Source: Tubiluchus corallicola
Lineage: Eukaryota > Priapulida > Priapulimorpha > Priapulimorphida > Tubiluchidae
Reading direction: 5' to 3'
DNA length: 64,000 bases
Assembly: GCA_030141605.1 (NCBI GenBank)
Contig: JAQGDQ010000101.1
Location: 132,501-196,500, forward strand
Numbering within the stretch: position 1 is the first letter of the stretch; the number at the start of each line of letters is the position of its first letter. This document shows, piece by piece, positions 4,875 through 53,400 of the stretch. The notes beneath the pieces were generated by a model. It was given only the letters and a program-made list of their open reading frames with translations, made no database searches and was not told the origin of the DNA. Both the position numbers and the translations under genes were made by a program.

Positions 4875-5624
4875 TTATCTTGTGCATTCACAACAAAATG
4901 TCACTGATCTTTCTTCGAAAATCCAATTTTTCTCCAATATTGACAATTGTCTTAATTTATTCAAACCGAATTCTGGCACAGCGTCAGGAGCACACGAATC
5001 GCTTCTTCTTTTTAAGATATTAACTGTAAACGCTTTTGGAATGCATTTGAAGTGCCCAAACCAACAAGAAGACCCAATGCACTCCACTTGTCTTAAATAT
5101 CTGGGAAAGCGGTCGGGTCCAAGATCTTTCCAAACTATTCTGGATTCACAATTCCACAAATCAGCTCCCGATGTCTCCCTTTTGCCACGTCGACTAGAAT
5201 TTCGGAACTCACTCTCAACTTTTACCTTATCTCCTGTGACATGTCCAAAATATCTCAAATAATGTTTTCGTGGCAAGTCCCTAGAGAAGTCACCTGGTAC
5301 AGAAAACTTCCCGTGACCTTTGTGATGTCTGGATCTGCTTGCCTTCGCGTCTCTCATCGCTGTCGTTCCCTCTGTAGAACTTTTTATTTCCTCTTCCGGT
5401 GGTGCTTCCACAGACATATAACGATAGTTAAACGCTGGACCTAAAAGATCTTTTAAATGCTCAGAAGATGCCGGTGGACACTCAACTTTTACTGCTGCGT
5501 GCTCGCCATGGCCACGTCCATCGTCACGTGGCTGTGCCTTCGTCTTTTTCTTCGCTGAAGGTCGACAAAACGCTAGAGAGAAAAGCAGGATTGCCAGAAA
5601 AACTGCCTTTTCAAAAGCAGCCAT
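4875..5624 (-). CDS. Trunk/PTTH/noggin-like secreted cystine-knot ligand
   Basis: A single-exon ORF of 249 codons. The frame stays open to a GTG at 5651, but the first ATG is at 5622-5624 and has a good context (A at -3, G at +4). That Met starts a signal peptide (AAFEKAVFLAILLFSLAFCRP). A basic, poorly conserved pro-region follows, then a dibasic RRGKR site typical of furin-like convertases. The C-terminal domain of roughly 95 residues has the family pattern: WKDLGPDRFPRYLRQVEC, SSCWFGHFKCIPK, FTVNILKRR and a final FCCECTR. The W-x-DLG...PRY block and terminal Cys cluster are shared by noggin and by Trunk/PTTH, ligands of Torso-type receptors in insects; the SCWFGHFKC segment fits Trunk-like proteins better than vertebrate noggin. 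A secreted signalling role is inferred; the receptor is unknown. No intron is visible. Confidence 0.68.
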   Translation of the reverse strand: MAAFEKAVFLAILLFSLAFCRPSAKKKTKAQPRDDGRGHGEHAAVKVECPPASSEHLKDLLGPAFNYRYMSVEAPPEEEIKSSTEGTTAMRDAKASRSRHHKGHGKFSVPGDFSRDLPRKHYLRYFGHVTGDKVKVESEFRNSSRRGKRETSGADLWNCESRIVWKDLGPDRFPRYLRQVECIGSSCWFGHFKCIPKAFTVNILKRRSDSCAPDAVPEFGLNKLRQLSILEKNWIFEERSVTFCCECTR

Positions 5625-5646
5625 AATCCAGTAAAACTCGAGCCAT
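5611..5646 (-). promoter_or_regulatory. Short upstream ORF overlapping the Trunk-like start
   Basis: An ATG at 5644-5646 with G at -3 and G at +4 opens an 11-residue ORF ending in TGA at 5611-5613. It is out of frame with the main ORF and runs across the main ATG. If the mRNA includes this ATG, it could reduce translation of the ligand. The transcription start is not known. Confidence 0.4.
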
Positions 5647-7040
5647 CTCACTTAATAAAGAGTTTGCTAACTTCACTGTCACTTTGACACTGCCAGAAAT
5701 GGTGCGTTCTTTCGCATAATGCCTAACAAGTCTATCAAATATCAACTCAGTCACTCATTTTAAACCATTAACAACTAATTTTAACCACAGAACTTCCAAA
5801 AACAGGACCATCCTCTAATTACGTCTGCTGTAACTGAAATTGAAACTCGCGATTGAGACACCCACAGCAACTGTTCATTTAACCATCACTGCACAGTAAG
5901 CATGGGTTAAGAAATGGTCAATCTAACCAGAGTGCTACTTCATATCATGAGAAACAGGCAACAGACGCTATATTACAAAAATACCCGACGAGAACAGACA
6001 CTTTCTCTTTGTAGTCACACGCACCTAGTTATCGTACTCATTTGTATTAGGATGACAAAATAAAAGCAAACCTCACTTCACAGGTAGAAAGCAAAACCAC
6101 CTCTTTGCATGGAAAACAGGTTGACAATGAGCTTGTTTTGGAGTCGCCTGCAGTTAATTAGCACATCTGATAAATAGCAGATCAAGGAGAATAGAACATT
6201 TGTCGCAGTAAACAAACAGCAGACAATAAAATACAACTCTATGTGATAATTAACAGACTAAGGATGATTTTCGCTTATTTTGCGTCAGTGTACTAATAAT
6301 AGTGAAAAAAGAGTAAAGCAATATTTTTTACTACAGCATTCCGCGGTAGAATTCCGGATATTCTAAGTGAAAATGAAAAAGAGCAAACAAACAAAGGAAA
6401 ACAGTCTTTTCCTGTGTCACACTTTGTATTTTTCGCGCTATTTGTTATTATTATTATCATCATCATCATCGTTATTAAAAGTTTTATTTCACATTTTTCC
6501 TTAGTCAGTGTCCTTAAGTCCGTTGGAAGAATGCACGCAAGAAAAGAAACGTTTAGGCTATTAATTCTGTTAGTCAGGCCCGCATCTCTGCTTGTTTCAC
6601 GGTTCTTTACAATCCCTACTACCCCTAGAGATTATTTACAGTCAACACGTTTATAACTGAAATTGGATTGAAATTGTTGCTTTGCGCCATCTACACAGTA
6701 AAACTGCAAACTCTGAGAATGTACCATACACGACGCACGCACACGTAAACACGTGTTCAACTATACATACTGTACATTTTGGCGCTTAGTGTGGCGGAGT
6801 GTTTCTACAAAAATTGAATCTCAGAAATTATTCTTAATGAATGTCGATGCATGGGGAAAGTTGCCTCATTTTACGTTTAGGTTATAGAAGGCAATTTGTT
6901 GTGCAAATAAAGAAAGTACACAAGTCGCCATTCATGCAAAACAAACAGGTTTGATAAGATTAAGTTTTCTACCACTATTAACTGTGCGTAACGCCGGTAA
7001 CAAGTCTGTTACAAAAGGACCGCTGAAAGCTTCTGCGCGG
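5625..7040. other. Intergenic between divergent genes
   Basis: Upstream region shared by the - strand Trunk-like gene and the + strand hexokinase. It holds a short run of ATT/ATC trinucleotides near 6443-6475 and no coding signature I trust. Confidence 0.55.
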
Positions 7041-24260: not shown

Positions 24261-27200
24261 ATGTTCTTTTTTACCAAGAATTTTAAAAGGAAATTACTGA
24301 CAGGTGTACTTGCTTATGCAACCATTATATTATGTTTGTGCATAATGTTATTGTGGTATACAAAGGTAAACGACCGCGTAAAAAGCTCTAGAAGGCGTAC
24401 CTTCGACGTGAGAGTTGTACACACGAAAATGCAGTCATCGACTACTCGAAATAGACTTACTAGGGGCACCGATACTACCGAAACTCTTTTCACGATCGCA
24501 CAATCTTCCCAGAAAGCTCCTCAAATTAATTTTTTCAAAACGTTTGAGTCAAGTCGGAGAAATGTGGAAGCAATGAATGCGAACAGATCGTTTTTGGACG
24601 CCTCACTGGTACGTAAAAGCGTTGTGTTCAAATTATTGTAAATATCATTTACCTATTTTTTCTGTATTAATTTTGTGTGCCGTACGTATAGCTACTGTAT
24701 GTGCAATAGACAATTCGAAAATGCCTTTGCTAGGCAGCACAACACATGATACGATGACATTAAATTTTAATTCTTTGCATTAGTGCAGCACTTGCATGGA
24801 AACCCTAGATGCATTTGGGAAAGTTCATTCAGATGAAGACTTACAGAGCCTACTATATTATAAACTTAAGAACGTCGGTTGTTGCACCAATTCGCATAGC
24901 ACTTTGAAGAAATTACTGGAGTAAAAAACCTAGTTTACAAAATTGGCCAACTACAGTTTAGAAAGAGTTTACAGATAACAATATATACGTACAATTTCCT
25001 CAGGTCAGTTTACAGCCCATTAGGAGGCTTCCCAGAGGAAGAACGAGCCCGAAGACATGAAAAATCAAAGAGAGAAAATTCACAGTGCCCAAAAAATATA
25101 TTTTTGAGCTTTTCAAATTATTTGTTACACCCATGCCGTTTGGCACTCAGACTCAGAGATAGATATTTCTGTTTAATGGAACAAGGTGAGCTATTTATAA
25201 TTTGTACAGATTTTCAATTTTCTTTGCAGCTAGACTGACCAGCAACATTAATCTTTTGGTAAATGCTTACTGAGTAACTGAGAATCTTTTTGAATTTTTG
25301 TGCCATTTTATTGTGCTGCCGTACTGAAGTGTAGAACAGAGGTGTAAAATCAAAATCGCAAGCAGAAAATGAAGCCACACTTGATGTAAAAATTCTCATG
25401 TGACATTTGACTAGGCTTTGTAACTGTCATGAAACAATTGTCTACCTATACACCACACACCTTTTTCTATAATATTAAAAGTGCTCTGTCAGGATTAAGC
25501 ATGATAGCAGAGGAACAGTTCTTTTTAGCTTACCTGGGTGGGGTATCTGAGGACATATTACAAATTAGCAACAAATTAAAGCTTTTTATGGTTTTTCAAT
25601 TTATTTACGGGAATTTGCTGATTAAGATTTTACTGGGAAAATAAGTGATTGTTATTTCCTTTCCATTTGTAGATGCTAGAACAAGCCAGAGCAATTCCAA
25701 GTGGACATAGCCCCAGAATTCAACAGGAACTTCCTCTTAACTCATCCGTGCTGCCAATATTGTTTATTGTATGTCCACATTCGCATGTCGATCCAGGGTG
25801 GTTAGAAACGTTAGAGAGCTATTACAAAGGGAAAGTGCACTACATATTGGACAATATAGTTAAAAAACTAACAACTCATACAGATATGACAATGATTTGG
25901 TCAGAAACAATTTTCCTTCACATGTGGTGGAACAGTGCTACGGCTGAGGAAAAAAGCAAAATGATAGAACTGGTGCATAATGGTAGACTAGAAATAGCTG
26001 GTGGTGGATGGGTAATGCCCGATGAAGCCACAACACACTATTATGGATTAATAGACCAATATATTGAAGGACATCAGTGGTTGGAACAAGTGTTTCAGAT
26101 AAAACCAACTACCCATTGGCAAATAGATGCATTTGGTGTGTCCAGCACTTTGGCTTACCTACAGGCAAAGATGGGCTTTCGCGACATAGTCATACACAGA
26201 ATCCATCATGGACTCAAATGGCTGCTTGCCATGCAGCGAAATTTAGAATTCTACTGGAGACAATATTGGGACAAAAATGGCATAAATGACATACTATGTC
26301 ATGCCACTCCATACAGATACTACCAAATAAAGTGGACTTGTGGACCAGACATATTAACGTGTTTGGAATTTGACTTTTACTTAGGCAATCCTGAAGCTAG
26401 ATTTACAGCAAGAATTAATAATCGTAATATCAAAGCCAAGGCTCAGAAACTAATCAATCAATATAAAGAAAAAATGAAATTATATAAACACAATGTAGTA
26501 TTAGTTCCGCTCGGAGATGATTTCCGATGGTACGAAGAAGGTGAATGGTTTCACCAGTACCATAACTACAGAAAGCTTTTTGATTTCATTAATGGAGAAA
26601 ACTTTGGAGTTCAGATAAAGTTTGGAACTTTAAGAGACTATTTCAATGAAGTACGTGCACGAGAGGGCTTACTTCCTTCACCACTACCAATTCTAACTGG
26701 TGACTTTTTCCCATATTCTGAAGAAGAATCTGGCTATTGGGTAGGATACTACACTTCCAAAGCTTTTGCCAAGAAGTTTTGCCGTTATGTGGAGTCCCGC
26801 CTTAGAGCCGCAGATATTATATACAGTTTAAGCACAGCTCAAGATGGTGAACATACAGGCAATATTAAACTAGCTAATGCTAGAAGGAACATCGCACTGT
26901 TTCAACATCACGATGCAATTACAGGTACTTCACCTCATGACACTGCAAGTGATTTTAAACGAAAACTATGGACAGCACTTACGGACATAAACAATGTTAT
27001 CTCATCAACTGCAGAAAAACTAATAAAAGTTAATGACAATCACGAACAAATTAAGTTTCACATAATAGAACAAATGGAAACACCGGAATCCATTCCAAGG
27101 AAAACTGTGATAGATGTCATCGGTAAAAGTGTTTCGCTTGTCCTGTATAACAGCATTTCTGTGAATCGAACAGACATTGTGAGATTTTTAGTTAATAATT

Positions 27201-28600
27201 ATAAAGTAAGCGTGCACGATGAGAATGGTGAACTGGTGCCAACCCAGATAAGCCCAGTTTGGGTGTCGCAGGGCTTGGTACAGACAAGCACTTTTGAGCT
27301 GGCATTTAAAGCACAACTCACAAGTCTAAGTTTAAAACTGTACACCATTAAACCAGCTAAAAGTTCCAGCCAGATAAGTAAGATAAGTGTGCTTAATGCG
27401 CCAGAAGGCTATGTCGTTAATCAAAGCATATTTCCAATAACATACAACATTCAGAACTTAACATTAAAGGGAAAGGGGTTCATGGCAAGTTTTTCTAGAA
27501 AATTTGGTTTACTAGAAAGCATATTATTGGACAATGGCAATACAATAAATGTGAATATTAACTTCTACCTTTACACATCAATTGGTAGTGGCTCCTATAT
27601 TATAGGAGACATGATACATGCACAACATATTCATCAGCATAAATCTGAACGTTTGCCAATCATAAGAGTGATACAAGGAAATGTTTTTGGTGAAGTACAG
27701 GTCTTATTCAACAGTGTAATACACAAAGTCATTATTGATACTGACAAGAGCGATGGAAATGAGCCTTTCTTCCTTCATATTGTAAACACAGTCAATGCTA
27801 GAAGTATTCCAAATAAAGAATTTATAATGAGAATTTCCTCAGATATAAAGAGTAATAACACATTCTTCACAGACTTAAATGGCTTTCAATTTGTGAGACG
27901 AAGCAAAGCAGATGACAAAACGCTATCATACCCAACAAACATCTTTCCAGCCACATCAATGGTAGGCATAGAAGACCAAGCTACTAAACTTTCTGTACTA
28001 CTGTCCCAGTCACATGCCGTGACTAGCCCCATTTCTGGTGCTATCGAAATAATACTAGACAGACTGATTACCACTACTGACCATAAGGGAAACCCAGAAG
28101 GAAATCCAGTTGTGTACGAGACAGAACAGCATTTTAAACTTCTTGTTGAATACACTAACAGTACAAACCTGACATCACACTTATTATCACTAAGTCATTA
28201 CAGCCATGTGTTGTCAGCCAAACTAAATAATCCTGTGGTTGATATGCTCATTGAAGGAAATAAATCAGTGCCACAAAAACTGGTGAATTTGCCACTACAA
28301 CTACCTTGGAACATCATCCTTGTATCATTGCGTGCCTTGTCTTCTGTATCTCAGAGTCGAGCAAATCGCTATGGTATTATTGTACATCTTCCGCAACAAA
28401 ACTGTACTCAAGACACGCCAAGATTTGACCAGTGCAATGACCAAGCCAGATTTACTTTTAATAGTATTTTACGCGATATAAAAATTTTTAATATTACCCA
28501 AAGCACGCTATCTTTTCTTCATGTAATACGAGCAATAGAGCCACATGAGCTTATAATTATGAATCCTTTAGATTTACTAGCTTTCCAGTTCCAAGTATAG
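24261..28600 (+). CDS. Golgi alpha-mannosidase II-like GH38 glycosidase, divergent
   Basis: Proposed exons are 24261-24608, 24784-24920, 25004-25185 and 25680-28600 (1195 residues, close to MAN2A length). Junctions in the first three exons are inferred from phase. The ATG at 24261 gives a short basic tail and one membrane helix (about residues 12-32), the type II topology of Golgi glycosidases. The last exon holds the whole catalytic part: PHSHVDPGW, GRLEIAGGGWVMPDEA, the nucleophile in IDAFG, PLGDDFRW, GDFFPYSEEESGYWVGYYTS and QHHDAITGT. Zinc and catalytic residues known from Drosophila Golgi mannosidase II (His90, Asp92, Asp204, Asp341, His471) are all represented. Other positions differ: HND is HVD, DPFGHS is DAFGVS, and the segment that normally reads YSYDIPHTCGP is RYYQIKWTCGP, so Tyr267, Asp270 and His273 are replaced and the nearby CPW is absent. 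Cleavage of mannosyl bonds is likely; classical N-glycan trimming specificity is uncertain. Confidence 0.88.
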
Positions 28601-31914: not shown

Positions 31915-34900
31915 CTATGCCATATAGATGAACATGTTTATATTATCTTCATCTCTCCGCATGTACTTGTGCTCGATGAGCCACTCTATTTGCTCTTTTA
32001 TCATTTTTTTGCTTGGTAGAAACATGTTCTTCAGAATCTCCACAAGTTCCGTTTGTAGCTGCGCATTTGTGATCTTCTTCCTCATCTTCATTATTTTCAC
32101 TATTGCTTCCTAAAAAATCAATATTCGAACTATAAGATCCGCAATTATTATTACTATAGTGTGGTCGGTCATAAATCGGTAAAATTTTCGGCGAAAATAC
32201 TGGTGACAGTGTCAGAAAATCTAGTTTTGAATAATTTGCTAGAAAAAAGTTTGGGAGAGTATATTATTTATTATTAATAGACTCACAGTGTCACTGTTAA
32301 TTCGATGAAATCATGATACTTAAAAGTTCTCAAGAATTACAGAAGAAGAATGCACACATGCTATGATCTAGTATGCCACTTATATATACATATGCAAATC
32401 TGTAAAATTAAAAATAAAAGGAAACAATTTCTTTTTAACATCATGAAATTAGCTTCAATGTATGACATAGCAGTTGATATCCCATTCCCAGAAGAATTTG
32501 TTGACCTAAACGTGTCTAGAAGGGCTTAAAAAGTTCTATTTACTCGCTGCTATTTATTCTGCCTGTTTAAAACGCACTCTCTCATGTTGAGCTAAGCAGT
32601 AATATGCAAATGCATGTACTCACAAATTAATTCAATGGTGTAGCACTCATATTTCCTAAATTATCAGACACATTCAACAACATTACAGAGATAATAATAA
32701 TTCAAAAATAATAAGAATTGAACAGCAGCCTATGGCACATTTAATGAAATGAGGGTCGCAAAGAAAGTGCAAATTATGTTTAATGACGAATGCCAGCCAG
32801 GTAATATAATTTTTTGAAATGCTCCTCTGGTCATAGATACTGCTCACTTTACCCAAAAAAACACAGGTACTTTTAATTCTGACACTTTGCACTATCAACA
32901 GCAAATTTCAGTAAATTTGTATTATTCTCTATATCACTGTATATAATTTATTAGCACTTACTGAATATAGTACATAAAAACCACACAAATTTCATAATAT
33001 TATGATATAATGACAATAAATTGCTTACTTACTTACTTAGTACAGTGTTTCAGTCTAATATTAGTCAGCATCAAGTACACTAATGATTAGTAACTTCTTT
33101 CTGAATTTTTTTCTGAATTTTATAACTATTGTTACAATAACGTGTAAACACATTTCAATATCATGCGTTTGCATCATTTATCTAATTTTCACAGCACCTG
33201 CGCAGTTTAGTTATGATCACATTACAGCATGTAAGCTTAAAATTAAGGTAACATTTGCAGTAATCACCACAACAACATCAGGTTCTTCAATGAGACGTGC
33301 TTAACCGACATCTGTGCAGGTCAGGATGACAAACTACACGACTTACAGCAATAGTTCAATTCAACAATTAGAAGGTATTTATCAAGACATTTGTGACGCA
33401 AGGCTTCAAAAGGGGGTTTAACTTAGCAAAAGTATTTTAGTCTTAGGCTTTTCTTTACACATTGCATTAAAACTAAAATAATTTTGAAAGAAATTCATAT
33501 ATGACCAGAAATTTTATCAAAAATAGTGTTAGAAGACAAACTGTGCAAAAAATCTGTTTGATTACTATTTAAGTTTCAGCTTCTTTTAAAAAAGATTCCT
33601 TATAAATATAAAAAAATCACATTTTTTATTTGGTGATAAGTTAAACCTCCCAGATGCTTAACACTAATGTCATTTTTTTATTTTGATGTGGCTAATAATA
33701 AAGTTTAAGTTTAAGTTTATTTTACTTTTCTATAGCGGATATCCATATCTACATGCTATAGCACGCTTTACAATGATTACAATTGTAATGTCACCTACCA
33801 CCAATATAATAAATTTACATAAAATTATAAAATGTATAAAGCAAATCAAAAACACATCAAGAAAATCAAAACATTAAAACCAGCAAGTTCTCTATTTAGA
33901 TTAAAATATCAAAAAACTTGCATTATGAACAGTGGCGGCTCAAGTACGCTTTAGCTCGTGTAAAGATAGGCTACTGTGGAACTGCAGCACCTTCTATTTT
34001 CACTCAGTAATATCAATAATATTCAATATAATAAATCTTTTTTCTTTAGTTCTTTCTTTATACTTGAGAAGAACCAGATTTAAATTTCAAATTCAATTTA
34101 CTTACATATTTCGCATCAATAATATATCATACTGGTAACATTTAATGTACATCATTGTATAATTTTAGTTCAAAATAACGGGTATAATGATAAGAATTAG
34201 TATCTATTTATGATAATACTACTGCGGTAATTCAAGAAGCTTATAATAGCTTTTAAGAATGGCTGAATATGAAATAGAAACAAGGAGGAGAATCTATATA
34301 CAAAAGTATGTAGAAAACAAATAAGTAAAAAACCAGAGCATGAGAGAGTAGTACTCTTTGTTTCACAGCCCAGCTCATAGCTCCAGCAACATGTGTTTGG
34401 CCGTTTTGCGCATGTAGCCATTCGCACAGGTCTGAGAAAAGATACTGTACGCTGCTTGGCTAGCTCTGCTGCTATGTAGAAAAAGTACTATATTTCATAC
34501 AGTTTCAGTTTCAATTGTACCATGTACCGTCATATTCTTGGATGTGATGAAGTGTAGACTCAGTCTTGTGTACTTAAATTATAAATAATTTAATCATGGC
34601 CACCTTGCATCCCCAAGAAATAAGTTCTATGACTGCAAGTGAACTTCAATAGCTTAATTTATCACATCCCCATGAGAAAGTTGCAGTTAAGAATTGTTTA
34701 AAATTTGATTAAAATCGCAACTACAAATTACAACATTAACATTACATATGTTTACTTCATGATACACAGTATTAAAACAATGACTAAAAATTTTCTAAAG
34801 CAGCACCCTACTAATTTTAACTACGAGCCGCCACTGATTATGAAGCTAAAAAATGTCTAGGAAGCATACATTTTAAACAAGAAAGTATTCAATTCACAAT

Positions 34901-37900
34901 CGATACAATTAAAACTATAAAATTACAAAGATGATTTAAAATAGTCTTTAGGAACACCAAAAAGCTTTTAAAAACAAGCAAGTTTTTAATTCGGATTTAA
35001 AAGTATCAAAAAGTATGTGATTATAAAAAATCAAACTTCAACCTTAAAACTGAGTTTAAAGATACGTTCTTACAGAAAATTTGATTGTGTTCTAGATAAT
35101 ATAGATGAAAGCATGGCAAACATACTGGACAATCCATTACCACCCTGGCCATTGTATTTTGGCACTTGGGTGAAAAAAGTCATAAGCATTGTCATTGCTA
35201 TTCAATGCGCCGTCACGTTTAGCGGAAACATTCTTGCCATCGGATCATTTATTAGAGATAAGAAACTTCGTACAACCCATAATGTATACATTGTTCATTT
35301 GGCTGCAAATGACGCAATGGTGGGAATCTTCCATATACCATTAATGTGGTGGGATCTGTATTACAGCAGCTGGCACACGTTTTCCTTATACAATAAGGTA
35401 TTCTGTGATACAGTTGTGCTTGTAGAAGTGGCTACCGGTTTCGTAGCTACAGGGAATGTCATTTTAATAAGTTGGGACACATACAAACTAATAATCGATG
35501 GAGCCCTTTATAGTCTAAAGAATACTATCAAGAAAGCTGTTATGTATTTGGTCACACTGTGGTGTTTCACGATTGTTTTTTATGGTATTGCTGTCTATGC
35601 TTGGGTGGACATAGTTGGATACACTATACATGACTCACTTTTGTACTGTGATGTAGAATTCAATCATCACAGAGAATTCACCATTTTCAGAAATATCTTA
35701 ACAATCTTCACACCAATGGTTCTACTGGCTTCGCTAAACATTGTCATATATCGTAACATACGCAGAAGATCCGTAAAAGCAATCCAACCAAACAATGCAG
35801 ATGTCACTCTGCAGAAACACAAAAAAGCTGCTCATGCAATGTTTCTCATTGTCTCATGCTTTGTTATTACATGGGCACCCTTTGCCTTGTACACAATAAT
35901 AAGACAATTCTGTGAATCTTGCTCTCATCCACACATTTACTTTCTCACCAATTGGTTCATCTATCTAAACTCCCTTGTAAATCCATTCCTATATGCTGCA
36001 TCAAGTCCTAGATTTAGAATGAATTACAAAAACTTTGCAAGATACGCCTACATGAAGATGAGAGCACTTAGGACTAATACAACAACACAGCAATCATAAA
36101 ACGAAGTGGGGAGCAGGCTAGCAAGCTTGAGGAGTTCTAAGCATATGAGATGTACTAAAAAGTAAAGGAATGGCTATGTAATCATACTCATTTTGGCAAA
36201 TAAATCATAAATTCTTAAATTTAAACCCAAAAACCTTAGGGATTAAAAAACTGCATTTCCATACCTAAAGCTGACAAAATGAACAAGCTTTTAGAACGAT
36301 GCAGCACTACAATACATTTTGTAATTAATAAATATTATGATACATATTTCTCTACAGTTAGCAAAAGTCCTGCAAAAATTCAATAAGTCTTTGCCTTTTA
36401 ATGATGATTTCATTTAACAATGAGGAAGTCTTGGCATTGACTAATGAGAGTGCAATCCATCTATGAAAGTTTCATTTTGACAATCTAGTTGTCAGCAGAA
36501 AATTTGAATACAATGAATGGAGGTTGTTTGAAAACATAGAACATAAGATAAACATATCTCAGAACAACATGCAGCCGTGCCTAGATGTCTGCAAATGTAA
36601 AAAATACTCAAAAAATTCTTTAATTTCCTCTGATGAAAAGCTGTGAAAACTAAAACAATATTTTCTGTCATTTCTTGTTATTTTTGGTGTTTCTCTTCAC
36701 ACTAAAACTTTGGAAAAATGCTGAGATTGTAATCATTTTTATCATTTCGAAAACATCACACAGTTTTGCGGACTTGAGCTTTTTCGAAAATTTCTGTACA
36801 TTCCTCAAAAATTTTAGGCATTGCTGACAATCAAAAATGTCAATCAAATACTGTGAGTAACTACCATATGTAGCAAATGCATGTACAGCTATGCAAGTAC
36901 CTGAGTTCTTAATATTCGTAATTGTACAATTCCCTCATTGTCCTCTTCTTTACTTCTCTCCGTTGATAACTGTAACCGGCCAATTAAATTAATTTTACCC
37001 CTTTTCTGTAGTTTGGCATTTTTCCTGTCAAAAATAGAATAGCTTTTTCAGCAACAGTAAACTGGAAGATGTAGTCAGAGTCACAGTATTTTTCTATTCT
37101 TAATGAAAGAAGCTTAAATTGAAATAAGTAAACACAGGCCAAAAAAGAAAGTAAGTTCTATTTATCTTGTCTATACAGGTCAGTTTACACTTTAAAATAA
37201 ATAATTACAATGTTTGTAACAGTATGTGAGTAAATATATGTCACATGTTAAAACAGGAGTATATATGTATTTAAACTGTCATAATCTATGTAACGATAAC
37301 AATGTACGTTTCATGTGGGTATTGCACTGAGACTGAACTTTGAACCTTTAACTGTTTGTGTAGTTAGAACACTGTTGTTCTTTTAATTATAAATGAATTA
37401 TTGTCCAATGTACTATAATCTTTCAATATACGTCATGTTATGGCATCATCATACTAGTATTATTACTGTTATTGTATTATATTATTGTTACTAGACAGTC
37501 AAGTATTTAATGTTAAGGCAGTCTAAAATACTGAATATAACAAAAGAAATTTAAAAATTATTGTCAATGATACAATATTAGGAACATCTTGTTCGTTTCT
37601 TATTACTGACATGATTAAATGTAATAAAACGAACTAAGAAGCCAGTTTTATTCAGCAAAAGTATAAAAATAACTTACACTAAAGCAAACTGTTGGTTGAC
37701 CCAAAATTTAGAGTCATCGGTGAAGTCTTTCGGTGATTTAGGTTCCGGATCACATAATAAAACCTGCCTTTTGATCTTTGGAAATGCTATCAGCGACTAA
37801 AAACAAAAAATACAATAAAACACAATGGCATTAAAAAAAATTGGCAACACAAGCACATAATATCACTAGCCATTGTAATTTGCATAGCAAAACAAAGTTG

Positions 37901-44487: not shown

Positions 44488-47400
44488 GTTATCATTATTA
44501 AAATAGCTCTTTAAAAAATGGTTGTTGTGTCAAAGATTGATGCAAGTGCTATAATGTTGTCGTGAAGTTTGGGCTTCACGATTCGCCCCCCATAGAGAAG
44601 CCATTGAATTGAATTGATTTCACGTGTAACTGTAGAAAAGAAGTGAGGCAGTTGTTGAGTTGGTATGAAAGGGCAAACTAGCATATTGCGTTCGAAAAAA
44701 AAGAATAAAGTTTAGCGTTACGACGGTGGTAAAAATTCTCGTCTTTTCGTTTTATTTGTCACAAAAGTCACCACGACAATTGGTGCAAGGAAACCCGGGA
44801 ATACCAGGAACATTTAGATGCGTTTATTAGAAAGCATTTCAAGCGCAAAATAAAGACTATTTCGGCACATAAAAGTAAACGGGTGTCTACGTACGATTTT
44901 ACCTGGCTTCAAGCTTTTGACCTGCAACGTTTGTTAGCGAAATCTGTTTGGACTATGAACGATAATGAACGTAATCTCGTATTCGTACGCTCCTTTGAAG
45001 ACGATCGTAACTGTCAAGTTTCGAAAAGACTGTGCGGAGTCAACAATGAACTATTTTTGTTGCTGAAACCTGTTGATTAACATCGAGCTTTGACTTTACT
45101 GAGGTGGTTCGTCATGCCAAACAAGGATCAAAAGCCCGACGGAAGTATCCCAGCTAGTGCTAGAGACTTAGGCTACATTAAACAAGCACGAACCAAGGCA
45201 AGGAAAAGCCTGCAAGAGGAAATCGAGCTAGCTAACGAATTGGTGTCAAGAGATGAGTCAACGATTGGTGACATTTCAAACTATCTGCAGCGTGTCAAGA
45301 TGTGCAAACACACTCTCCAGAATCGTTTGGCAAAGCTGGAAGATCTCACATTAAAGTTCTCGGAGCGTGGTATGACAGCTGAGGCAGACGAAGCAACAAT
45401 AAAAGCAGCAGACCAGTACTTGGAGGAAGATAACGAATTCCTTGGCACGGTATCTCAAGTTACTTTTTTGTTAGATGAATGTATTACTAAGTTTTCTGTA
45501 AAAAATGTTAAAAGGGATTTAACTGATGAGTTTCACACTGTTTCTGAGATACCTCATAGTCGTGCAGTTGATAAAAAACCTACTGTTGTTCATGCGGCTG
45601 CGTCCGCATCTCAATTTACTGATAATGACTCACCTGTTGCTCCGCCCCGTCGCAAGAGAAATATTAGTCTTGCCCCTATCACGCCAACTAGTGGTAACCT
45701 TGTACAGTCACACAGTTATGTTAAACTGCCAAAATTCGAACTGAAATCATTTTCTGGGCAGATTTTAGAATGGCGTGAATTTTGGGATGCGTTCAAAACT
45801 ATGGTTCATGATCACCCAGATTTAGAAAATATTCAAAAATTTCAGTATTTGAAGAGCAAGCTTACAGGTCCTGCTCTTAGTGCAGTAGAAGGTTTTTCAC
45901 TCAGTAATGAAAACTATTTGCAAGCGTTAGATGTTTTAAGAAGCCGTTTTGGCAAAGAACAAAGCATTATTAATGTACATTATAAAGCTTTGGCACATCT
46001 TGAAAACTCCGGAGAAAATGCTAAAAGTCTTAGGAAATTTCAAGATAGTCTTGAGTTGCACTTGCGATGTTTGGAGGCAGTGGGTGAATGCGTGGACAGC
46101 CGTGTTATTATCCCATTAGTATTAGAAAAATTACCACATTCAGTAGTGCAACAAATGCGCATTACAATGGACCCTGATAGCGCTTGGTCAGTTTCAGATA
46201 TAAGACAACGTCTTAATCGCCACATTCTTACTTTAGAAGCGGTTGAAAATGAAACAGCTGCCTCCAGCTTTCAGCAACCATTCTCTAAGGCTAATGAGAG
46301 ATTTCCTAAGAAGTTTGTAAGTGCATCAAGGCACGAAACTGTTCTTGGAGCTTCTGATAAGCAAAGCTCCGCCCACACGCCACAACGTAAAAACGTTAGC
46401 GCACATTCTGATTATCCAGCACGCAATTGTATTTTTTGTAAAGGCCCACATTGGGCAGATCAGTGTGGCAATTTTGCTACAGCTAGAGAGAGGAAGAGAC
46501 TTCTGAAAAAATCGTTGTTTTATTTGTCTAAGAGAAAATCATCAAGCTCACCAATGTAGATCAGGCAGAAGCTGCTATTTCTGCCATAAAAATACTCATC
46601 ACCGTAGTTTGTGCACAGAGCAATTTCCAGATAAAAATCGAGAAACAAACCTAGCTTGTTCACCCAGTTTAAGTTTGTATTCTAGTAATGAACAGGTTGT
46701 CATGCAAACAGCGCTCGTTCGTGTTAGTCACCCTGTTTCTCACAAGACTATTACAATTCGAGCCTACCTTGATTGTGGTTCTCAGTCCAGTTATATTAGT
46801 GCTAGGCTGGCTAATTTGCTGAATGTTCCTAAGGGCACTTCTGAAGTGCTTCAAGTAGCTACATTTGCAAGTAAAAATGTTAGGCAAATTTCTTGCTATG
46901 CTGCAAATATTGGTTTGCATGGTCTAAATTATGAAGATAGAGACGTCACGAGATTTCTGTGGGTAAAAAATGTCAACAAACCCCCGTCGGATCCTGGTAA
47001 TTTGCAAATATTTCGCTTCTGTCGTGTCATTTTTGGAGCTATTAGTAGCCCATTTTTGCTCTCAGGTACAGTGAGTCATCATCTCAAACAAAAAGAAGCA
47101 GATTTTCCTGTAGCTAAACAAATTTTGCGCGACATTTATGTCGACAACTTTATTTCAGGAACTTCCACTCTAGATGAAGCCAAAGTTCTTTACAGTCAGA
47201 GTAAACTGTTGTTTTCATCGGCAGGCTTCAACCTTAGAGAATGGGGGTCGAATGACACAGATTTTTTGCGTAGTATTCCAGTCGAAGACTGTATAAAATC
47301 AAGTGTTGTCAAAGTTTTAGGTATCACTTGGGACTTAAAAAATGACACTTTATCTATTGCAAAGGTAGACCCTGATCGATTGTTACAGGCTAATACAAAG

Positions 47401-50400
47401 AGACAGGTATTGAAAGCCTTAGCAAGCCTTTTTGATCCGTTGGGCGTCGCAAGCATTATAACAGTTAATGCAAAGTTGTTTTTGGCATCTTTGTGGAAAG
47501 AAAAACTAGATTGGGATGAACCCCTTTCTGAATCGCACTCAAAACGCTGGTGTGAAATTGCCTTAACGCTGCTTTCTATATTCGATTTGCACCTTCCAAG
47601 GTGTATTAGCGCATGTGAGTCTAACGCAGTATTTCAGTTAGTATGTTTCACAGATGCTTCTGAATCTGCTTACTGCGCAGTGGTTTATTTAAGAGAGACT
47701 AACATAGAATCTGATTTTTGTGCTGTCAACTTAATTTTTGCTAAAACGCGCCTTGCAGGAAAAAATATTTCGATTCCTAGATTAGAACTGCTTGCTGTTT
47801 TGATTGGAGTGAGAGCTTTAAATTTTGTAGAAACCCAGCTACATGTGAACATAACCAGGCGTATAATATTTACGGATTCGTTATGCGTACTTTATTGGTT
47901 GCAAACTCCTAAACAGTTGTCGGTGTTCGTCGAAAATCGAATTTGTGAGATTCGAAAGCAGGTTCACACTCAGTTTCGATACGTTCCGTCTCAATCGAAC
48001 CCTGCGGATGGCGCAACTAGGTCAGGTGTCAGTAAAATAGATTCGTTCTGGCTACACGGTCCGCACTTTCTCAAAGAAAATGAAAGTAACTGGCCTGAGA
48101 GCCAGTTGCCACCTCTAGAAGCTGAACGATTGACAGATGTAAATAGCGAACTAAGAAAAGGCAGTAGCATACTTTATGAGACGCAGTTTTTAACACTCGA
48201 TCAGTCCAGTCGAATTCATGATCTGTCTATGTTTGATATGAACCGATTTTCTAGCCTAAACAGGCTGTTAAACACTACTAGCTGGGTGTATCGAGCTGTA
48301 AAGCGTTTTAAAGGGGAAAGGTGTGCTATGGGCCCTATTACTGCAAATGAACGCTCCTACGCTAAGTTAAACTGGATAAAACACGTCCAAAGACAAACAT
48401 ATGTAGATAACGAAGGACGTGCAGTAGTGGTTAACCCAGCACTACAACAGCTAAATCTTGCATTAGATGAACAAGGCATTATCAGATGCTTAGGTAGGTT
48501 ACAAAATGCTAATCTCACACAAGGTATGTCTAGGCCCATTCTCTTACCTAAAAACAATCAGTTTACAGTTCTGTTGGTAGAACATGTACACAAACTAAAC
48601 CTTCATGTTGGCGTATCGCAGACCTTAGCATTATTACGTAAAGAGTTTTGGGTTCCTTCTGGGAGGGAACTGGTCAAGAAAACTTTAAATAAGTGCCGTA
48701 CTTGTCGGAAAATGGAAGGTGGAGCCTATAAGTTACCGCCAATGCCAGAATTACCTCCAGAAAGAGTCCAAGAATCTAATCCCTTTACACATGTAGGCCT
48801 CGATTACATGGGCCCCCTTACAGTCAAATATTGTATACCTGGGAGTTGTGAACCATTTTACAAAAAAGCGTATGTGTGCCTATTCACCTGTTTAGCAGTG
48901 AGGGCGGTGCATTTAGAACTCGTCACGGACTTGTCTACTGAAACGTTTATTATGTGTCTGAGACGTTTTATAGGTCGCCGAGGTGTACCCGAAACTATAA
49001 TATCAGATAATGCGCCGCAGTTTCATCTTGCTAAGCAGACGTTGGATTTGATTTTTCAAAGGGTTTTCAATTCTTGTTCTGTGCAACAATACATAGCACA
49101 AACTGGTATTAATTGGCATTTTATCATTCAGCTTTCGCCTTGGATGGGCGCGGTTTACGAGCGTTTAATGAGCCTTATTAAACGCTCTCTACGCAAAACA
49201 ATTGGTAGTAGGGCTCTTTATCAGTGTCAGTTGAGTACTTTGCTCATTGAAATTGAAAGTTTAATCAACAACCGTCCTATTACATACATTGAGTCAGACA
49301 TAGATTCCAGCTTGGTTTTAACTCCAAGTCATTTCTTGAGCATGCGCACTTTAAATTATGTGCCAGTGTACAGTGAATCCGAATCAGATCCCGATTATAC
49401 TCCCAACAGGTACAATCTTTCTGGCGAACGTCTTTTCGAAATGTGGAAGAAAGGTGTTGGTTATTTAGATTCTTTTTGGAAAATTTGGCGCAATGAATAT
49501 TTGCTTAGCCTCCAAGAAAGAATGGAGCGCCAAGTACGCCAAAAACGCGTTAAGTCGAAATTTGAGCCTCATGTAGGCGATGTAGTATTGATTGAAGATT
49601 CACTTCCCCGTGGTCAGTGGAAAGTGGGGAAAGTTGTTAATCTCATTATTAGTAAAGACAGTAAAATCAGAGCTGCTAAAGTTCGTGCTAGTAATGGTAA
49701 TATTCTGACTCGTTCTTTGAGTCAATTGTTTCCTGTTGAGTGTCCTAGGTCAGTTGATGCAAGTGCAGGTGAAAAAGGCACTTGTCCTGCACAGCATCAG
49801 CACATTGAAACCTCGCACAAAATTTTACCCAAACGTGCTGCCCCATTAGATGCTTGTGCAAAAATTAAACAACAGGCAACACGTTTATAAATTTGTCAAA
49901 CCGTTTGATGTGATTGTGCAAATGTATAATAAGATTTTCATTACTATATGTTCAAATTTGCAATGTACCAATGTGCTATCTACATAGTTGTGACCTTTAT
50001 TTCATTGTTTAATTTTGTATGACAAACAAGAGGTACTTAACATGCAAAAATTGCATAGATTTAAAGTTAAGACCCAGATAGCTATTGTTGGAATTTTCTA
50101 ACAAAATAGTTCTTATAGATCCATTGTTGTTATGCTCACGTAATTGTTATTGTATAATGATTGTTAGTTTTTTTCCAAATTGTTTTCCTGAGTGCTTGAG
50201 TGTATTAGATTTGGCCAATTTGATGTGTATTATGTATTGTATCTTTGTGCATTGTTTTTGATTCTGCATTGTTTGAATTAGGTTTGCATTGAAAGAAAAT
50301 TAAAATACGTTGCGCGCAACATAAATCTGAAAACTTTACTCGTACTAGCTACAAGTAGTGCAATTAAAAGTTATAGTATGGTAAATTTGCAAGAAAATTT

Positions 50401-53400
50401 TTGGTGAGAGCCTGCGGTTTCTGTATCTTGGTAATACTTTCTTGTCTTTTTTTCTGGGGGAGTGTCGTGAAGTTTGGGCTTCACGATTCGCCCCCCATAG
50501 AGAAGCCATTGAATTGAATTGATTTCACGTGTAACTGTAGAAAAGAAGTGAGGCAGTTGTTGAGTTGGTATGAAAGGGCAAACTAGCATATTGCGTTCGA
50601 AAAAAAAGAATAAAGTTTAGCGTTACGACGGTGGTAAAAATTCTCGTCTTTTCGTTTTATTTGTCACAAAAGTCACCACGACAAATGTATCAGATTAAAT
50701 GATCCCCTGTAAGTTTATGGAGCTTCTACAAATTTAAAAAGCATTATATTTTCCATTAGAAATATCAAAAATCAAGTTTAATTGCAGAGAAACATGGCTG
50801 TTTTAAACTACATGCACAATCCATCATTGTATCAAATATTCAACAAACTGCTACATTTTAAGCTGAGATTAAAAAAGAGCAAAGGCTAATAAACTATAGC
50901 TTACCTTATCTCTAGCTGTAAGAAACCTATGGTCATCTAAGAATGCATCTTTTGCCAATTGACTGAACCTACTGAACAGGTCTAACAACTGCTCAACATA
51001 TTTCTCGGAGTCCTAAAACGACACGACAAACTGAACTATGAACTATGAATTTTTTTATTTCACACATCAAAAAATACAATATCAAGCACATCAATAAATG
51101 TAAAATAAAATAATTTGAATAGTGCAAGGTGAATGTATGACCAAACGGTCATTAACACACTCACCTTACTTAAATGAAAAAATGATTATAATTATGCACG
51201 CTTTTGTAGATAACTTAATAAGGATCAAGTAAATAACGTAATAATAGCAATGGTATAAGAGCAATAAAACTGAAAGTTCAGAAAGGAAAACATGTAATAT
51301 GTAATAATGCTTTTGAGTGAGCCTTAAAGAGTGAAGTTTCAAAGCACAAAAAATGTCAACAGACGTTTACAAGATTTACGCAGGTTTATCTAATTAAATG
51401 TAAAAAGTGACTGAATTTTCTATTTAAGCTGAAAAATGACTACTCTGTTTTCTTCGTGGTATAGAAACTTTTATTCCACTTGCTACGCAAAAAGTAACAA
51501 ACTCACATTCTACATTTTCCAATATTTTCAATTGTTTTTGAGTCACACTTTGTTTCATACTAGGGCAAGGTTTAAGAAAACTGAAAAATCTTCTCTCTAT
51601 CTACCAGACAGAATACACACCCAATGCTAACAGAGAAGCAGAAAAAGGTCAATCTCATCATATCAAAAAAAGTTTTAGCATATACACTGCTTTAAAACAT
51701 TAATGCTAGCTTTACAGAAACTATCAAGTTGTAGATAAAAAATTATTGTTAAACAACAATACTCACAGTACTGCTTTTGTAATTTTCTATTTTTCTTGTC
51801 AAGATGCAATGATTTGATGAGTCATTGGTCGGTAGTCTACTTTTACGAGTAGTTATTTGTAGTCTATTACTTTTCTAATTTTAGTTTATAATGTTTCTGT
51901 TTTTCCTGGGTTTTCAAGTAATTTAAAAATGTATAAAGACCGTAATGAACATAAGGGAATATTCCCTTTTTACGATATGCTTAGCATATTATTTGAATTA
52001 TTTTTATACTCAAACAAAATCTATGTATCTATCTAATAACAAACGAAAATATAACATGCAGAAGTAATGTACTCCTCATTTTGAGTTATTTTTATACTCA
52101 AATAAAATCCATGTATCTATTTAGTAACAAATAAAAGTTTAACATACAGAAGTAATGTACTCTGCAGCTGCCTTCATATCTGCCAGTCCTTGGCTAACAA
52201 TATGATCTTCCAGGTCCTTCAGCATTGGAGCGATGCCATCTGGAACCCGATCCATTAAACGAAACATCAACTGCAATCCTGTTAACAAACCCATCAATCA
52301 GTAGATGAAATACAATATTTTTTAATACACGAAAGAACAAGCCTCTAGCTATAGACACGTTTATTGTTTATTGAGCCTAGACGATTGTTTTGGTTATTAT
52401 AGCCATTTTCAATACAATAAATCAAGCCAAAAAATTATCTTTTTTGAATTTCATATATAAGGTAAAATTTTTTTACATTTCTCTGCAATTTCTTCGAATT
52501 GCCTCCACGTTTGTTTTGACAATTTAAATTCTAGTCAGTTGATTTGTAATGACATTTTGTGCCTAGGTATTTTAGTATCATCAATGTACTAATTATTGAT
52601 TTTTTGGCTTGATTTATAGTGTTGAAAATGGCTATAATAGTCAAAATGATTGTCTACGCTCACAAACATGTTAATGACGAAATGATCAGAAAGCCACTTG
52701 ATCACTTCAACACAATAATAATACACAACGCAATAATGAGAGAAACACAAAAATATATCTAAACCTTGTGCACGTAACTATATGTAGGTGAAACGGGTTA
52801 AACAGGTGGTCATTTTTATTACAATACTATACATGTATAGTAATAAATTAACAAGTTCTGATAAAACAGTTAGGGAGATGGTAGCAGCAATCCACGTAAA
52901 ATGAGATAAATGAAGCAAAATTTAACCCCAAGAACTGTTACTAATACAACAGCATATGCCTCGAGGAGTTGTCAAGTGTAAATAATGGTGTTTAGTACAG
53001 ATAACATTGTTAGGCTCACTTAACCTTTGACTTTTTACAATTATCATTAATCACTGGAACTGTAAAAAGGTTTATTAAAGTGAGTAAATTAACTGCCAAA
53101 CAGTTAGCAATAATAAAATAAAGGACAACCCATTATAAACTAAATCACATTTTCAGGCTGCAATACCTTTGATACCTTTCAGCTACCCTCTTCTTAAGTA
53201 GTTTGACCCAGTTATTATACACACTTCTATTCAGCAATTTTATTTGTGGCGCTAGCACAACACAAAAAAACATAAATATATGCACACACATATATATATA
53301 TATATAGGAGCTGATAGTTGGTTTATGGACAGAGTTATTAGAACAAAATGGTGACTTTCAGCAAGCAACAGTGTTTGTCGTGTTTACAAAAAGCTTTCTC

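Follow-up and report, generated by a model that had tools for sequence, protein, structure and literature searches.

Does a 7TM reading frame that carries threonine at position 3.50, where the (D/E)R(Y/F) motif has its arginine, represent a genuine class A receptor, and if so, of what descent and with what likely mode of action? We addressed this question for a locus in a 64,000-nucleotide stretch of the Tubiluchus corallicola genome (hereafter the window), and refer to its product as the DTY receptor after its Asp-Thr-Tyr motif. Should it prove to be expressed and conserved, the DTY receptor would be a natural experiment on the extent to which a receptor derived from aminergic ancestors can dispense with Arg3.50, with the DRY paralogues of the same genome as built-in controls; because 3.50 and 6.30 have changed jointly, it would tell more than a mutant altered at one position. 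A decaying gene or a sequence error would be of no special interest. The features on which its identity depends are the following:

35113 to 36099, plus strand: 7TM coding sequence, taken from the earliest available ATG through the stop codon; a class A GPCR of H3/H4 descent by its reading frame, Pfam match and tree.
35425 to 35427, plus strand: codon of Glu3.32 (residue 105); in the alignment, all H3-like kin have Asp.
35476 to 35484, plus strand: GAC ACA TAC, coding for Asp3.49-Thr3.50-Tyr3.51; the aligned paralogues have GAC or GAT, then AGA, AGG or CGA, then TAC or TAT.

The frame is open from ATG to stop over 328 amino acids, with no internal stop. It is more than a chance occurrence, since 328 open codons would arise at the local base composition with a probability of about 3e-12, quite apart from strong homology: Pfam 7tm_1 covers the full length (E 4e-37; 128.5 bits against a cut-off of 30.5; profile positions 1-260 of 260). 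Numbered from Cys3.25 in an alignment with 144 other receptors of the genome, the protein has Glu3.32 and Asp-Thr-Tyr at 3.49-3.51, and it keeps N1.50, D2.50, the Cys3.25-Cys45.50 pair, W4.50, P5.50, W6.48, P6.50 and NPxxY. Thr3.50 departs from the class A criterion of Arg3.50 in (D/E)R(Y/F), which is not obligatory, being found in about 96% of members. The profile match and the remaining checked hallmarks thus confirm the original prediction of a class A receptor with Thr3.50 and Glu3.32. An AlphaFold prediction made without an alignment reached a pLDDT of 45, and the model was discarded.

We then asked where this receptor belongs. Its best matches in the PDB are the muscarinic M5 (6e-30) and histamine H3 (3e-29) receptors. 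In a maximum-likelihood tree of 46 receptors, in which the human sequences cover the aligned parts only, as printed in the database matches, the DTY receptor falls in a clade with human H3 and H4 (support 100/98), in agreement with the predicted descent from amine receptors. The muscarinic identity suggested by the M5 match is rejected by the same tree, a topology constrained to group the DTY receptor with the muscarinics being worse by 41 log units (AU p 0.0003). Within the clade it is sister to L002/L003 (support 98/96). Its terminal branch, at 2.34 changes per column, is very long and the longest of its clade, so that membership of the H3/H4 clade is more secure than the exact position inside it.

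In the same genome, the genes closest to it are L002/L003 (37-38% identity), a tandem trio on contig C1885, and L008. L002 and L003, on contigs C1587 and C818, are 95.8% identical to each other and are probably haplotigs. The trio (L004, L005 and L006) consists of three tandem H3-like receptors with a normal DRY motif and long Q- or S-rich third loops; L005 is clearly H3-like, with a match of 9e-68 to H3. Altogether six H3-like genes were found in the genome, the DTY receptor and five with DRY, and a search of the genome for a second copy or haplotig of the DTY locus found none, making it single-copy. The DTY receptor is a diverged, fast-evolving H3/H4-like paralogue, derived from DRY-bearing relatives. 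Like human H3 and H4 it has Asn5.58, where muscarinic receptors have Tyr. Unlike them, it lacks Asp3.32, Glu5.46 and Arg3.50, and its intracellular loop 3 is very short. Because two defining residues, Asp3.32 and the acid at 5.46, are missing, the name of H3 or H4 receptor would be unsuitable.

Loss of Arg3.50 was found in 6 of the 145 receptor sequences sampled from the genome (DTY, DQY twice, DLY, DHY and HKY). The resulting rate of about 4% is rough and may be low, because the sequences sampled were ranked by how closely they resemble the Pfam profile and the DTY receptor, and a few of them are duplicates. It matches the known rate, Arg3.50 being conserved in 96% of class A receptors and lacking in about 4% (PMC3414077), and the loss is unusual, not unprecedented. 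The DTY receptor is the sole member of the six-gene H3-like clade without Arg3.50. The other receptors that have lost this residue (L091 and L105, DQY; L107, DLY; L112, DHY; L094, HKY) fall outside that clade. A KIV motif placed shortly after position 3.50 is common to L091, L105 and L107, which may form a small subfamily; the nearest PDB entries to L105 are the GPR6, alpha-1A and S1P1 receptors. Our literature search for a "DTY motif" in GPCRs found no report.

The receptor lies among the exons of a cullin gene, which descend the window on the minus strand. The host gene contributes two features:

31918 to 32109, minus strand: last cullin-5 (CUL5) exon, with the Nedd8 domain and the terminal residues NINMFIYMA, identified by its Cullin_Nedd8 domain and its match to human Cullin-5.
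32110 to 36900, minus strand: last cullin-5 intron, the host intron, 4,791 bp with canonical splice sites, defined by exon boundaries and splice sites.

The nearest solved relative of the last exon is human Cullin-5 (E 6e-30), the next cullin following at 1e-9. The penultimate CUL5 exon ends at 36901, with the donor CAG/GTACTT running from 36900, and the acceptor TTTTTTAG ends at 32110, just before the last exon. These positions place the receptor frame within the last CUL5 intron on the opposite strand, and the antisense nesting of the frame in a cullin-5 intron of about 4.8 kb, as predicted, is real. The whole 7TM frame lies inside this intron; a probable upstream first exon could lie outside it. 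The identity of the locus, a receptor of the H3/H4 clade with its 7TM frame nested in CUL5, has good support. By vertebrate standards such an arrangement would not be remarkable: nested pairs make up 4.3-8.7% of gene pairs in seven vertebrates, and in human and mouse about three quarters of the simple ones have their two members on opposite strands (PMC8467205).

The gene had also been predicted to be intronless and to have its own poly-A signal, and neither claim was supported. Three features bear on them:

35094 to 35095, plus strand: putative phase-1 splice acceptor AG, reading TTTGATTGTGTTCTAG with AT after the junction, which matches a site in five paralogues; the exon would begin at 35096.
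34837 to 35011, strand not assigned: dispersed repeat (about 175 bp) lying immediately 5' of the receptor frame; its partial copies elsewhere in the genome number more than 20, at 71-86% identity.
36199 to 36204, plus strand: AATAAA, a possible poly-A signal by its motif, not better than chance.

All five DRY paralogues have a phase-1 acceptor-like AG 41-50 codons before Asn1.50. Three of the sequences, L002, L005 and L006, must take their start from an earlier exon, because they have no in-frame Met upstream of TM1. In the DTY receptor the acceptor TTTGATTGTGTTCTAG stands 44 codons before Asn1.50, in the same phase as in the paralogues; an acceptor of such quality, place and phase has a background of 3.5% of host-intron positions. 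The shared site makes an upstream exon likely, and by this comparison the DTY receptor is probably spliced to an upstream first exon, so that the ATG at 35113 may be internal rather than the true start. The context of this ATG is good (A at -3, G at +4). The upstream end of the open frame, within the dispersed repeat, is probably non-coding. We also considered a retrocopy origin and dropped it: in the kin, L002 and L003 among them, the 7TM region likewise occupies a single open exon preceded by an acceptor-like site of the same phase, and a layout that the kin share needs no retroposition. As for the poly-A signal, AATAAA is present, with a further copy at 36327, yet the motif occurs in 35% of 200-nt stretches elsewhere in the same CUL5 intron. 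It is no better than chance there, and we rejected it as a sign of transcription and as evidence for a gene.

Is the frame still under constraint? We simulated neutral drift from L002 to 38% identity in 200 runs, with substitutions only and the base composition of the intron. The simulated sequences gathered 15 stops on average (minimum 4) and lost a mean of 8.6 of 13 hallmarks (minimum 3), whereas the DTY receptor has no stop and keeps all 13 of its other hallmarks. Thus, most of its divergence arose under selection. In an unconstrained DTY frame, a first stop would be expected once about 0.013 substitutions per site had accumulated (95th percentile 0.057), and any loss of function must therefore be very recent. 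One explanation would fit within this narrow interval, namely that the locus is a recently released duplicate at the first stage of decay, in which Thr3.50 and the pocket changes described below are damage preceding the first stop. Its branch is the longest in the clade, its GC3 is low (0.39 versus 0.54-0.69 in the kin), and no second conserved copy was found in the genome. Moreover, the lost residues cluster at sites of functional importance: of the 36 positions invariant in the clade, 10 have changed, and the DTY receptor retains 72% of these positions, versus 82-100% in the other members. The long branch and low GC3 also fit relaxed constraint. However, the frame has neither stop nor frameshift, the 13 other hallmarks are all intact and most of the divergence was made under constraint, and we regard early decay as unlikely. 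The original prediction had named paralogues with normal DRY, together with stops accumulating here, as what would count against it; the paralogues do have normal DRY, but the DTY frame contains no stops.

The changes are not confined to position 3.50, as two further codons illustrate:

35701 to 35703, plus strand: codon of Thr5.46 (residue 197); Asp or Glu in the alignment in human H3, H4 and four of the five paralogues, Tyr in L006.
35818 to 35820, plus strand: codon of His6.30 (residue 236); Asp in the alignment in all five paralogues and human H3.

Compared with its kin, the pocket of the DTY receptor has Glu for Asp3.32, Val for Phe/Tyr3.33 and Thr for the acid at 5.46. Further changes replace Tyr6.51 with Phe, Tyr/Phe7.39 with Asn, and Asp6.30 (Ala in H4) with His, so that pocket and ionic-lock residues have changed together. 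L002/L003, by contrast, have DRY, Asp3.32, Asp5.46 and Asp6.30 and a far shorter branch. In the pharmacology of human H3 and H4, histamine is anchored at both ends, through positions 3.32 and 5.46. Since both are changed here, histamine is unlikely to be the ligand, as judged from these residues. On the intracellular side, Arg3.50 usually pairs with an acid at 6.30 to form the ionic lock (PMC6954041, PMC3414077). The DTY receptor has lost both partners, which is consistent with a rebuilt intracellular switch or with relaxed constraint acting there.

The same comparison bears on whether Thr3.50 is real. ACA differs by one base from AGA, the codon used by the paralogue L005, so that a single sequencing or assembly error, or a minor allele, could produce Thr3.50 in a receptor that is otherwise ordinary, though diverged. 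We consider this highly improbable: the nearest paralogue has CGA, two changes from ACA, and His6.30, Glu3.32, Thr5.46, Val3.33 and Asn7.39 are changed too, which places 3.50 in a consistently remodelled receptor.

What Thr3.50 would mean for signalling can be approached through known receptors. Arg3.50 touches the G protein directly in solved active complexes (PMC3414077, PMC6954041). When it is mutated in H4R, G-protein activation is lost, while H2R mutants show weaker activation and the neutral ones still respond to agonist (PMC3414077). C5L2, D6 and DARC, which naturally have no charge at 3.50, show no G-protein coupling, and D6 and DARC scavenge or transport their ligands instead (PMC3414077). 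Like the DTY receptor, C5L2 (C5aR2), D6 and DARC have the class A fold and no positive charge at 3.50, and may share its likely mode of action; they belong to complement and chemokine families with no shown kinship to it, and their ligands and functions are known. Given the H3/H4-clade placement and the behaviour of the H4R mutants, the predicted atypical signalling is plausible by analogy.

We infer from these comparisons that the DTY receptor may couple to G proteins in the ordinary manner only weakly or not at all, and that its ligand has probably changed, a reading that we place first and give an even chance. It is favoured by the role of Arg3.50, the H4R mutants, and the behaviour of C5L2, D6 and DARC. 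The loss of coupling is not certain, because H2R mutants at Arg3.50 still answer agonist. Ordinary coupling with a new ligand, with Thr3.50 and His6.30 jointly replacing the ionic lock, would agree with that observation on the neutral H2R mutants (PMC3414077), with the alteration of 6.30 together with 3.50, and with the retained Asp3.49, Tyr3.51, NPxxY and TM6 hallmarks. We nevertheless find ordinary coupling decidedly unlikely, given the direct contact of Arg3.50 with the G protein in solved complexes (PMC3414077, PMC6954041) and the loss of activation in H4R, a member of the same clade, upon Arg3.50 mutation (PMC3414077).

We then propose a mechanistic model for a weakly coupled or uncoupled DTY receptor. 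After duplication, the class A fold would have been retained, while the residues that hold the amine were lost (Asp3.32 to Glu, the acid at 5.46 to Thr, and the aromatics at 3.33 and 7.39 to Val and Asn). The polar switch between TM3 and TM6 would have been lost as well (Arg3.50 to Thr, the acid at 6.30 to His). Glu3.32 may bind some other ligand, probably still cationic, and the receptor could act through arrestin, by being internalised, by removing its ligand or by forming dimers. It is tempting to speculate, though we hold this only as a tentative and rather doubtful possibility, that the DTY receptor is a naturally G-protein-uncoupled member of the H3/H4 clade, conserved in its lineage, with a rebuilt amine anchor and ionic lock, matching on the aminergic side the atypical receptors for chemokines and complement.

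The window contains three further elements. Another CUL5 intron harbours a Bel/Pao-type LTR retrotransposon (44558-50687, plus strand) with frames for Peptidase_A17, DUF1759, integrase zinc-binding and DUF5641 domains; its flanking 225-bp direct repeats are 100% identical, which marks it as a young insertion. Beyond the 3' end of CUL5, and on the strand opposite to it, stands a single-exon frame of 975 amino acids (25673-28600, plus strand) with all three alpha-mannosidase (GH38) domains. A frame of 258 amino acids (4875-5651, minus strand) has a weak Noggin match, at 23.1 bits against a curated cut-off of 24.1, and possibly encodes a noggin-like or, we presume as another possibility, a trunk-like cystine-knot protein.
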